A stretch of 64,000 nt of DNA from Marivivens donghaensis (lineage in GTDB: Bacteria > Pseudomonadota > Alphaproteobacteria > Rhodobacterales > Rhodobacteraceae), in assembly GCF_023541015.1 (NCBI RefSeq), contig NZ_JALNPR010000004.1, forward strand, positions 1 through 64,000. The letters are read 5' to 3'. The position numbers were made by a program, and so were the translations under genes. Of the stretch, positions 1 to 3,082 are shown one piece after another. A model generated the notes under the pieces. It worked only from the letters and a program-made list of their open reading frames with translations. It searched no databases and was not told the origin of the DNA. Every line of letters begins with the position of its first letter. The first letter of the stretch is position 1.

Positions 1-105
1 CCAAGATGTGCCGTATTGTGATGAACTACGGATTAGCCTATGTAATGAAATCAGAGTGTTAGCAGAGTTGTTGTGCCTGTAACGGGAATAGAACCCAACG
101 TCTAA
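1..105. other. Left flank, nothing assignable
   Basis: No open frame, RNA gene or terminator that I can support lies here. The stretch is the DNA just outside the left arm of the inverted repeat. A T-arm-like string (GGG, 7-nt loop, CCC at 84-96, minus strand) is too weak to call a tRNA remnant. The rest of whatever element is present would lie to the left of the window. Confidence 0.4.
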
Positions 106-221
106 CCCTTCAGCGGCACCAATAAAGCAGAACATGCCCAGCGCATTTTATGCTTAACTATCTGGAAACACTCAAAGATTTACTTCAGCCCTAGCATTGG
201 GCTTGCCATGAGTGTTGACCA
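106..221 (+). repeat. Left arm of 116 bp perfect inverted repeat
   Basis: These 116 bases are the exact reverse complement of 1419-1534; I compared the two arms ten bases at a time and found no mismatch. The arm starts with CCCTTCAGCGGCACCA (106-121), the 3' end of the tRNA-Thr gene including its CCA. It then carries the same leader that precedes the integrase start codon in the right arm. Beyond 221 and before 106 the similarity stops. It does not rebuild a complete tRNA, so it is a second, inverted copy of the attachment end. Confidence 0.95.
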
Positions 222-240
222 TTCGAAAGTCAGACACCAC

Positions 241-1416
241 TCAAGTCAAAACAACTGCCTTCATGTACTGCTGAAGCTGTTCGAGTTCATACCCACGTCC
301 ATAGCCCTGCCCCACGCTATCGTGCGACCATCCCCCAAGCTGATCCACCATCTCAGTCGGACAGCTAACGGCTCTCAGCCTGTCACGCATGGAGTGACGG
401 AAGCTATGCATAGAACATCCTTCACCAACAAATGGCTTCAACCACTTATTCAGAGCGCTACTGGCTGAGTTCGCATTGGTTTGACCCTTCTTATTGTACC
501 TCGGGAAAGCAGGTCCCTTTGCATCACCACAAGTCTCAACAATGCGCTGGGCAGCCCAGAGAGATGCACCAACGAGAGGCACAATACGCTTACTGCCCGA
601 TGTCTTCAGGCCACGGTAACTATTGGGTTCAATGATGATATGCGGAACAGGATGATCCAGCTTCAGATCAGACACCATTGCCCCTGCTGCTTCAGCTAAG
701 CGTAGCCCAGTGTCACTCACCAAAGCCACCAACCAACGGGCTTCATCATCAAGCTCTTTGCACTTTGCTTGCACAACACGGATGTCCTGCACCGCAACAG
801 GCTGACGTTCTGACACGCCAGCAGACCTATCATGGTACACACGAGTGAAAGGGTTCTTCAGGTCTAGTGCATGTTCAGAGTTCACAAAGTTGAACACAGC
901 CACAACACTATTGAAGATACGAGTGATACTGGAGCCAGCTAAACCACGAGCAATCAGACTGTCACGGAAAGCCAGAGCATCACTACGAGTGTACTCATGC
1001 AGGTGCTTCAAGCCACAAGCATCAACAAGGTAGCCACAGGTACGATGTGCAGCAGTATGGAAGGTCTTGGGCTTACCAGCACCCTTAAGGGACAAGTACG
1101 TCTCAACGGCTTCCGTTAAGCACATGCTATGCATCACCTGAGATGCAGTACCACTCGGCACAAACGAAACGCTCTTCTGCTTTAGCAAATGCTTTCCGGG
1201 TAGCTCAGCATGGGCAAGCCTCATGTGAGACCAGTGTTCATCCAGTTTAGCTGCCAGCATCACAGCCCGTGTTCGAGCTATGGAGTACTGCTTTGTGTGA
1301 AGCGACTGAACGACTCGTGGATAGCTGTAATGATCAACTAAGTCGTTCGGTACACGTCTAGAGAAGTAGTAATACCCCTCACGGTTAAACGTATATGGGA
1401 CACTTTTGGTCTGCAT
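241..1416 (-). CDS. Tyrosine recombinase/integrase
   Basis: Site-specific DNA recombinase of the phage-integrase type, about 391 aa. The N-terminal part (YTFNREGYYYFSRRVP) resembles the DUF6538 arm-binding region of alphaproteobacterial integrases, followed by a SAM-like core-binding domain (about 100-200). The catalytic set looks complete: R239 in TGLRLAEA, K276, H337-SF-R340, W363/H365 and nucleophile Y372. I chose the ATG at 1416; a GTG at 1428 is also in frame but lies inside the inverted repeat, and neither has a convincing ribosome site. The gene reads away from the 3' end of tRNA-Thr, the usual position of an integrase next to its attachment site. Its composition is visibly more AT-rich than the core genes, which suggests acquisition. 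No other gene of an element is visible, so it may be an element end or a remnant. Confidence 0.9.
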   Translation of the reverse strand: MQTKSVPYTFNREGYYYFSRRVPNDLVDHYSYPRVVQSLHTKQYSIARTRAVMLAAKLDEHWSHMRLAHAELPGKHLLKQKSVSFVPSGTASQVMHSMCLTEAVETYLSLKGAGKPKTFHTAAHRTCGYLVDACGLKHLHEYTRSDALAFRDSLIARGLAGSSITRIFNSVVAVFNFVNSEHALDLKNPFTRVYHDRSAGVSERQPVAVQDIRVVQAKCKELDDEARWLVALVSDTGLRLAEAAGAMVSDLKLDHPVPHIIIEPNSYRGLKTSGSKRIVPLVGASLWAAQRIVETCGDAKGPAFPRYNKKGQTNANSASSALNKWLKPFVGEGCSMHSFRHSMRDRLRAVSCPTEMVDQLGGWSHDSVGQGYGRGYELEQLQQYMKAVVLT

Positions 1417-1418
1417 TC

Positions 1419-1534
1419 TGGTCAACACTCATGGCAAGCCCAATGCTAGGGCTGAAGTAAATCTTTGAGTGTTTCCAGATAGTTAAGCATAAAATGCGCT
1501 GGGCATGTTCTGCTTTATTGGTGCCGCTGAAGGG
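1419..1534 (-). repeat. Right arm of 116 bp perfect inverted repeat
   Basis: Exact inverted copy of 106-221. This arm spans the last 16 nt of the intact tRNA-Thr gene (1519-1534), the tRNA trailer and the whole presumed promoter/leader of the integrase up to three bases before its ATG. The arms enclose 1197 bp that hold only the recombinase body. Confidence 0.95.
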
Positions 1535-1594
1535 ACTCGAACCCCCGACCCCATCATTACGAATGACGTGCTCTACCAGCTGAGCTACAGCGGC
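1519..1594 (-). tRNA. tRNA-Thr (CGT anticodon)
   Basis: A 76 nt cloverleaf can be drawn. Acceptor GCCGCTG pairs with CAGCGGC, followed by discriminator A and an encoded CCA. The D-arm begins GCTCAGCTGGTAGAGC. The anticodon stem CGTCA/TGATG carries loop TTCGTAA, so the anticodon is CGT and reads ACG threonine codons. The T-arm is GGGGG-TTCGAGT-CCCTT. Its 3' 16 nt form the end of the 116 bp inverted repeat, so the gene serves as the attachment target of the neighbouring recombinase and remains intact. Confidence 0.95.
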
Positions 1595-1597
1595 GCT

Positions 1598-1628
1598 GGG
1601 GCGGCTATTAGCACTGCTGTGCCGCCCC
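1598..1628 (-). terminator. Hairpin behind the hemY-like gene
   Basis: GGGGCGGC (1598-1605) pairs with GCCGCCCC (1621-1628) around a 15 nt loop that is itself partly palindromic. It lies 8 bp beyond the stop of the hemY-like gene and 4 bp before the tRNA-Thr 5' end. There is no U-tract, so it may be a processing or 3'-protection hairpin rather than a true intrinsic terminator. Confidence 0.5.
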
Positions 1629-1636
1629 GAAAAGTG

Positions 1637-3082
1637 TTATTTTTGAACCTCGGCTGAGGAAATATCCTCAGCTTCGATTTCATCTTCCCCCACAGGCGAC
1701 GGAGCGGCCCCCACGATGAGCGGTAGCATCTCAGTGCCAGCGGGCATTGCAAATTCGGCCTTGGCGGGTGCTTTCCACGAAAGGGTGTCGAACGATCCGC
1801 AGCTTTGGCAGACGGGTTCCCACTCGGCATGAATGCTCTGACATTTGTCGCAGATCCATTGCGGACCGCGTGGTGCCACGAGTGCTTTGGTCAGCCAACC
1901 GCGAACCACTTGATCCTCAGACCCAGACCCGCGTTCAATCGCCGCCATGAGCGTCAGGACGCGTGCGGTTGGTGCATCTTCGGGCAAGGAGCCCAACGCG
2001 CGACGGGCCGCTGGAAAATCCTCGGCTGCGATCTGCAACTCGGCCAAGAGCATTTGGGTTTCGGGATCGGTTGGGTTCACTTTTGTCAGCGCGTTAAAGC
2101 GTTTCAGGCGCTGGGCGGGTGTTTCGTTTGGCTCAATCTCGGCAAAAGCAGCGGCGAGATCAGGATGCGGTTTCGCGGTCCAAGCCTTTGTCAAAACACG
2201 CGCGGCGAGCTTTGGTTTGCCTTTGGCGATGTGCGCACGCGCGGCCATGACCGCTGCGGGGATTAGGTCGGGCGACTGTTTGTTGGCGGCAATTGCAGCC
2301 TCTTGAACATCGATCGACGAGTCTTCGCTGATCAGGTCTTTGGCCTCGGACAGGGCCAAGACCGCATCGCGACGACGGAGCACATCTTTGGGCAAGCCAC
2401 CCGACTTCGCCTTAGCAGCCAAAGTCGCACGTGCGCCCGTCCAATCACCGCTATCGGCCTGAAGTTTCAGGAGAGTGTCCTGAGTGGCTTCGTGCTTGGG
2501 CTTCAGTTCAAAGGCTTTCTGCGCGAGCTTCAGCGCTGTTTCAGTATCGCCAGCGGCGAGTTTCTGCTGCATCAGCCCACGGATGCCGACAAATCGTGTA
2601 CGGTCTTCTGTCAGGAGGAGCTTATATGCAGCTTCCGCCTTCTTCTGATCACCCGCGACCTCTGCGGCTTGGGCAATCAAGAGGGTCGTCAGTTCGGGCT
2701 TATCGAGTAGCTTTTCAGCCTTGGCGGCTTTGGCCAACGCAAGGTGTCCCTCGCCAGAGGCAACAGCCATCATCCCTTCGGTGAGAGCCTGATACCCTCG
2801 CTCTACGCGATTGCGGGTGAAGTAGCGCGATACAGCCGTTTCATCGCCGTTCAGGAACTTGAGAAACGCCACCAACATGCCAAACAGCTTGAACATGACC
2901 CAAGTGAGAACGACCATGCCGACGAGAGCGAAAGCGAGTTCAAGGGGGCCGAGCCGCATTTCCAAACCAGCAAAGGTGATCAGCACCTCACCCTGAATTT
3001 GGGACAATTCCATCGCACCGTAGGTCAGTGCAGTTACGCCCAACACGAAGGCAAGGATCTTAATTAGGGACCAAAGCATCAT
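1637..3082 (-). CDS. HemY-family TPR membrane protein with zinc ribbon
   Basis: This is the HemY_N/TPR family, not the protoporphyrinogen oxidase also called HemY. Two membrane helices (about 4-23 and 46-72) are followed by a long helical TPR-like region (about 90-400). The C-terminal metal-binding knuckle has C411-x2-C414 and C425-x2-C428, followed by an acidic tail. That end resembles the rubredoxin-like domain of LapB/YciM. The gene follows the mitofilin-like gene after 7 bp and hemD further upstream, so the three likely form one minus-strand unit. The family has long been linked to heme synthesis by gene neighbourhood only, and its biochemical role is unknown. Length (481 aa) fits the Rhodobacterales form. 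Confidence 0.85.
   Translation of the reverse strand: MMLWSLIKILAFVLGVTALTYGAMELSQIQGEVLITFAGLEMRLGPLELAFALVGMVVLTWVMFKLFGMLVAFLKFLNGDETAVSRYFTRNRVERGYQALTEGMMAVASGEGHLALAKAAKAEKLLDKPELTTLLIAQAAEVAGDQKKAEAAYKLLLTEDRTRFVGIRGLMQQKLAAGDTETALKLAQKAFELKPKHEATQDTLLKLQADSGDWTGARATLAAKAKSGGLPKDVLRRRDAVLALSEAKDLISEDSSIDVQEAAIAANKQSPDLIPAAVMAARAHIAKGKPKLAARVLTKAWTAKPHPDLAAAFAEIEPNETPAQRLKRFNALTKVNPTDPETQMLLAELQIAAEDFPAARRALGSLPEDAPTARVLTLMAAIERGSGSEDQVVRGWLTKALVAPRGPQWICDKCQSIHAEWEPVCQSCGSFDTLSWKAPAKAEFAMPAGTEMLPLIVGAAPSPVGEDEIEAEDISSAEVQK

Follow-up and report, generated by a model that had tools for sequence, protein, structure and literature searches.

Integrases enclosed by inverted attachment sites mark a family of tRNA-targeting integrative elements

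The inverted repeat that surrounds an integrase gene at the start of the window (the whole 64,000-nucleotide stretch of Marivivens donghaensis DNA analysed here) is the mark of a conserved element family and not an artefact. The family is best read as tRNA-targeting integrative elements built as a replicon with two attP sites in an inverted repeat, working by the mechanism proposed below; we put the probability of this reading at roughly 0.6.

The caged integrase of Marivivens donghaensis

By direct sequence comparison, window positions 106-221 and 1419-1534 are exact reverse complements (116/116) and the adjoining bases mismatch on both sides, just as the original prediction had it; a perfect repeat of 116 bp cannot be due to chance. 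ARAGORN places a tRNA-Thr(CGT) gene, the integration target, on the reverse strand at 1519..1594, with its 3' end inside the attL arm. Its last 16 nt (1519..1534, reverse strand) are the attL core and, as foreseen, lie within both arms. The gap between the arms is filled by int (241..1428, reverse strand), an open reading frame for a tyrosine recombinase of 395 aa, so that nothing but the recombinase is enclosed: the attL arm runs 9-10 nt into int, whose stop codon lies 20 nt before the inner arm. At attL the core is followed by a P'-type arm (1419..1518, reverse strand) consisting of the int leader and the first ~10 nt of int. The internal P'-type arm (122..221, forward strand) is its perfect inverted copy and adjoins an internal core (106..121, forward strand) that is identical to the attL core and belongs to a second, inverted attachment site, attP2. 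The P side of attP2 (1..105, forward strand) opens a long inverted repeat, which the contig end truncates, and carries at 72..88 (forward strand) a conserved box, consensus GGTGCCTGTAACGGGAA, with one mismatch in the window. Window 1-221 has the order P side, core, P' arm, and points opposite to attL. The unusual arrangement that had been claimed, a recombinase between inverted attachment sites with its leader and start repeated in each arm, is borne out.

The window Int matches PF00589 (Phage_integrase; E 1.9e-11) and DUF6538 (E 6e-18) alone in Pfam at E <= 0.01, and no Flp-family recombinase match was found there. Residues R243, K275, H341, R344, W367 and Y376, which we take to be the catalytic positions of a tyrosine recombinase, are invariant across 18 Ints.

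The window is the start (base 1) of a 338,738-bp contig, C6, in an assembly of 11 contigs and 2.84 Mb. Its first 121 bases reappear at the end of contig C4 (673769-673889), where the P side and core enter different DNA. This copy is read as the presumptive attR of the window element (element A), in which case window 1-221 would be a complete attP-like site. With its recombinase domain and a core at both the C6 start and the C4 end, the window conforms to a tRNA-targeting tyrosine-integrase element. Directly past the presumed attR at the C4 end (L011) there is, by eye, a different integrase gene, so the tRNA-Thr(CGT) site may have served more than once.

Three elements of the caged-integrase type (A, B and C) are present in this genome. 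Element B lies at tRNA-Thr(TGT) at the C4 start, its presumed far end being the C5 end; element C lies inside an outer-membrane protein gene at the C3 end, with its far end at the C8 start. The arms agree within each element (A 116/116, B 116/116, C 117/118), whereas those of A and B match each other at just 97/118 positions. Several contig ends of the assembly overlap by exactly 121 bp, presumably as expected of de Bruijn assembly, and the long repeats appear in two copies only over roughly their first 105-121 bp, the full repeat being unassembled there. The ends of C9 (125,737 bp) also overlap by 121 bp, so this contig is probably a circular plasmid. The small contigs C1, C2 and C10 have stretches in common and jointly carry replication-type and outer-membrane-type genes; we take them to be candidate element interiors. 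The end of C10 resembles the C3 end by eye, a likeness unreported by BLAST.

Element C interrupts a FadL/OmpP1-like gene whose flanks, when joined, give a single open frame of 355 aa. The crossover sequence CCGAGTAGC is common to host and element. Both att sites of C have a longer tRNA-like sequence, CCGAGTAGCGGCACCA, which has no other exact match in the genome; the inverted pair therefore moves along with the element and is no copy of the local target. At E <= 1e-5 a single further FadL-like homologue was found in the genome, on C2 (L032, 214-1416; 32% identity by BLASTP). Should C2 be the interior of element C, the element would supply a substitute for the surface protein that its insertion breaks.

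Arms, long repeats and orientation across the family

Relatives of the integrase were sought in 394 family, 390 order and 385 class genomes, together with GTDB contigs and extra copies; the best 80 of 319 GTDB relatives were used, and the intact set therefore leans to close relatives. The 161 rows reduced to 142 unique int sequences, classed as intact (n = 99; at least 400 bits, profile positions 25-370 covered, no stop), disrupted (n = 28; at least 300 bits, not intact) or remote (n = 15; below 300 bits). ARAGORN was used to look for tRNA genes up to 400 nt upstream or 2500 nt downstream of int. The marine laboratory strain Ruegeria sp. TM1040, which appears as L043 and as L173/L113 (G497), is one count in the arm and attR tallies.

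The original prediction had suggested looking in related genomes for int genes with inverted tRNA-end copies, and these proved common: inverted arms surround int in 86 of the 99 unique intact Ints, at 95% identity or more in 79 and at 100% in 55. Where arms occur with a nearby tRNA (85 loci), arm length is 39-265 nt (median 86), and the tRNA 3' end lies inside or abuts the arm in 78/84; target genes include those for tRNA-Thr, Phe, Leu, Arg, Ser, Gly and SeC. The intact Ints are nearly all alphaproteobacterial; among the best 80 of 319 GTDB relatives there is one Desulfuromonadales MAG, the rest being alphaproteobacterial by title. No arms are seen in the available sequence of 13 of the 99 intact Ints, seven of them within 0.7 kb of a sequence edge; none was found at L252 and L259 despite 10 kb of downstream sequence, nor at L141 (longer as L166) with 17 kb. 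Remote Ints, mostly examined with 1.5 kb of flank, are without arms in 14 of 15 cases (the exception is L070), and an Int of Roseicitreum at tRNA-Ser has none. Relatives in viral contigs have arms in one case of four (L183). The window Int as query found no match in viral contigs, nor did an alignment of three Ints in genome contigs. Five plasmid regions (one with a helicase homologue, two with PolA-like proteins, two with distant Ints) show no inverted repeat around a family int. One of the five, the Paracoccus region L189, has a 1.2-kb inverted repeat distant from any strong Int match.

The complete order is tRNA, core, P' arm, int, inverted P' arm, inverted core, long repeat, interior, inverted long repeat, core and chromosome. 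For 37 loci the sequence extends 2.5 kb or more downstream of int; 13 of them have an exact direct repeat of the core (attR), in each case with a P-side copy there that is inverted relative to that of the internal attP2. A further two show the P-side copy but no exact core, and 22 have neither. In 15 complete loci, spanning 4-13 kb, long inverted repeats bound the interior on both sides; they start in or next to the core and range from 197 bp (G1022b) to 2265 bp (G598), at 95.3-100% identity. The complete megaplasmid of TM1040 (NC_008043.1) carries such an element at tRNA-Phe, with arms of 85/85 and long repeats of 1148/1148. Sequences end within 2.5 kb downstream of int in 56/80 loci and within that distance upstream in 4/80 (Fisher 8.6e-19); a long repeat would break draft contigs and so produce this pile-up. 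The 17-nt GGTGCCTGTAACGGGAA box was located in 32 of 94 elements (up to two mismatches, up to 90 nt from the core), where it lies 23-56 nt outside the core, and in none of 64 adjacent 90-nt control stretches; as its consensus was read from the same elements, the count shows position and is not an independent discovery. At one tRNA-Thr, L165 1626-11715 holds two elements in tandem, with common cores at 1626, 5931 and 11700.

The integrase begins on the tRNA side in 84 of the 85 unique loci with arms and a nearby tRNA. In the exception, L194, int faces the tRNA and the MAG contig begins exactly at the arm; its source study has mixed Illumina (short) and PacBio (long) data, so the reversed int may be an assembly choice. 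Free inversion of int in place, as its normal state, is rejected on this count.

The interior behaves differently from int. The single-contig genome G045 carries three complete elements, E1, E2 and E3. The int cassettes of E1 and E2 are 90% identical and in the same orientation, whereas 5.1 kb comprising the interior and one repeat are 89.6% identical and in opposite orientation. An element of IMCC1909 (L209) has its interior orientated as in E2, and E3 as in E1, so that E1 and E3 share about 5 kb (86-90%) with E2 and the IMCC1909 element in opposite orientation when read from the tRNA. The E2 primase-helicase occurs, at E <= 1e-60, in G045 and the window's genome alone among 384 family genomes, and isomer pairs are correspondingly few. 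Each of four replication-gene families occurs in both orientations relative to int. The helicase points towards int at seven loci (L171, L081, L079, L085, L201, L225 and L246, the last partial), and away from it at L043, L175 (partial) and L234; L169 has complete copies pointing each way. Primase-helicases point towards int in two cases and away in two, P4-type primases in one (partial) and one, and PolA-like proteins in one and three. The pairs L079/L195, L085/L244 and L175/L199 each represent one contig, judged by length, and count once. From these comparisons we infer that the interior flips: between close relatives it is inverted relative to the int cassette.

The arms of sister elements with different tRNA targets (A and B, E1 and E2) differ together: in E1 and E2 they match at 121/121 positions within each element and at 113/121 between them. 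The int leader RNA gives folding z values of -2.1 to -2.7 in A, B and C, -1.6 in TM1040 and +0.6 in E1. The int cassette of E3 includes a hemerythrin-like gene (L107 5198-5779), and in the cassettes L086, L089 and L266 an additional 1-3 kb separates int from the inner arm.

Replication-type genes and cargo

A replication-type gene is found in 11 of the 15 complete elements: an AEP-helicase in E1, E2, E3 and L209, a helicase of ~640 aa in TM1040, G598, G624 and L234, a PolA-like protein in L235, a P4-type primase in L251 and a PrimPol in G856b. The ORFs scanned in the other four (G512, G1022a, G1022b and G856a) include no recognised replication gene. The L234 element is 4.0 kb long, with room for little besides int and the helicase. 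A P4-type primase is also present on contig C10. The proteins of these 11 elements fit a replicating stage.

PolA-like proteins of ~400-510 aa are encoded at L031 3-1460, L033 5549-6970, L219, L235, L222 and L178; those of C1 and C10 belong to PHROG 4756, a family of unknown function. The structural model of the PolA-like protein is good in its C-terminal half alone (mean pLDDT 59.6), and all 50 fold matches listed are titled Pol I- or theta-type DNA polymerases, with low TM-scores of 0.22-0.31. The predicted fold is like that of family A DNA polymerases. The best matches of the helicase model (pLDDT 64.9) are XPD and DinG, at TM-scores of about 0.2-0.3. Sequence searches of solved structures returned six haemoglobin chains for the helicase (E 0.35-0.65), one chain at E 0.68 for the PolA-like protein and no match for Int. 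The PolA-like protein had no match in viral contigs, and no PolB domain was detected among 29 proteins scanned with Pfam.

The cargo includes type I restriction-modification in TM1040, G598 and G624 and an Mza-like defence set in G856a. Outer-membrane-type proteins, a transporter, TPR proteins and a fatty-acid hydroxylase are also carried.

A proposed life cycle and its rivals

In the proposed mechanism, excision by attL x attR would give a circle with two facing attPs in a perfect or near-perfect inverted repeat of ~0.27-2.3 kb. The repeat would divide the circle into a small unique region, with int alone or nearly so, and a large one with cargo and replication genes. Recombination of attP with attP by Int, perhaps helped by RecA in the long repeat, would invert one half of the circle against the other. 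Inversion during replication would turn the forks into double rolling circles and amplify the element, much as FLP does for the 2-micron plasmid. Re-integration via the int-proximal attP would leave int adjoining the tRNA, and the arms would stay identical through homologous exchange within the inverted repeat as it replicates. The inversion by Int in the excised circle and the 2-micron-like amplification, which is proposed from the geometry, are both hypotheses. The full picture, a bacterial counterpart of the 2-micron plasmid and a provirus-like island, in which Int would recombine the two inverted attPs of the excised circle to give double rolling circles and amplification and int-proximal integration would park the element at a tRNA, is offered tentatively, and its being right is the lesser chance.

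The attPs are identical over the repeat, so that unrestrained Int action would be expected to leave int facing the tRNA half of the time; as int faces away in 84 of 85 loci, the fixed orientation has to be due to selection or regulation. One idea is that integration via the int-proximal site separates int from a P-side promoter and silences it; a consensus scan gave it no support, with no promoter-like site in window 1-1650. The same scan of L043 14800-16700 found one site, not leading into int.

The original prediction was that of a self-inverting integrase cassette, in which attL and the internal site recombine to flip int in the chromosome as a switch. The perfect inverted att sites around int suit such a switch and L194 has int facing the tRNA, but the single orientation elsewhere, with L194 equivocal as a possible choice of the assembler, makes this very unlikely. 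Less credible still are a contig-end fold-back, a chimera or a tail-to-tail junction of two elements. The window does lie at a contig end, in an assembly where ends overlap by exactly 121 bp; however, the same plan is found in the complete TM1040 megaplasmid and in the single-contig genome G045, arms surround most intact relatives, and sister copies have arms of their own sequence. The assembly hairpin that had been suggested is therefore rejected. A junction of two elements, also suggested, is not needed, since there is one int and, in 13 loci, a direct core at the far end of one element.

A stronger competitor is that the repeats are kept and flipped by homologous recombination alone. Int would then just integrate and excise, the second attP would be a passive product of repeat expansion and there would be no amplification. 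The repeats are long enough for RecA, which could invert the interior without Int. Their ends wander, and whole genes have been duplicated within both long repeats (the 640-aa helicase in G598, a BRO gene in TM1040). Among 21 elements examined, three have arms extending 103-185 bp into int, and TM1040 has an apparent remnant of a longer inverted repeat (L043 17413-17559 and 24692-24838) that once included the helicase start. However, 14 of the 21 have an attL arm whose end is no more than 27 nt from the int start codon and an inner arm whose beginning is no more than 58 nt from the stop, and the repeat of complete elements spans the att core, a pattern that argues for selection of two complete att sites. 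The arms also seem less well matched around disrupted int genes (14 disrupted against 86 intact, P = 5e-4), though the classes are crude, shorter-ended copies being counted as disrupted, and age could explain the difference. Homologous recombination alone is on balance unlikely, if the most serious rival to the two-attP replicon.

The two-attP replicon has features of several known systems. In tRNA-targeted islands and satellites, int lies beside attL, the core restores the tRNA 3' end and direct cores stand at attL and attR. The present elements share all of these, and C10 adds a P4-type primase; unlike those islands, they have a second complete inverted attP beyond int and long inverted repeats at both interior ends. 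Invertible recombinase switches of phase variation likewise have a recombinase gene beside inverted target sites, but here the recombinase segment is not found flipped (84/85). Casposons and pipolins combine inverted repeats, their own polymerase and an integrating enzyme, as these elements do; the differences are a PolA-like palm and not PolB, tyrosine integration at a tRNA core, and an att site within the repeats.

The closest likeness is to Flp/FRT of the 2-micron plasmid, Flp also being a tyrosine recombinase. In both, recombinase sites lie head-to-head in inverted repeats beside the recombinase gene, the circle being deduced here from the integrated form. Both isomers occur, here between elements and not within one culture, and both are small (4-13 kb here, about 6.3 kb in the plasmid). 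These elements differ from the plasmid in being bacterial, inserting at tRNA genes, having defence or surface cargo and using a phage-type integrase (PF00589/DUF6538). The 2-micron plasmid is described as a circle of about 6.3 kb with its own recombinase, head-to-head target sites in inverted repeats, and amplification (PMC6594588). In another study, double rolling circle replication is reported to promote recombination, inverted-repeat inversion included (PMC3147054), which could keep the repeats of the elements alike.

In the titles and abstract openings of the open-licence literature, a body that leaves out most subscription journals and all preprints, no description was found of integrases caged between inverted attPs with long inverted repeats. 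The long repeats would explain many contig breaks in Rhodobacteraceae drafts, and the elements are consequently cut in assemblies. A recombinase caged by its own inverted att sites, in a repeat that divides two unique halves, is the layout used for 2-micron amplification. If Int inverts circles, recombination-driven amplification would have arisen more than once, and small islands with restriction-modification and other defence genes would gain a copy-number engine. The multiplication of such islands is directly testable in Ruegeria sp. TM1040.
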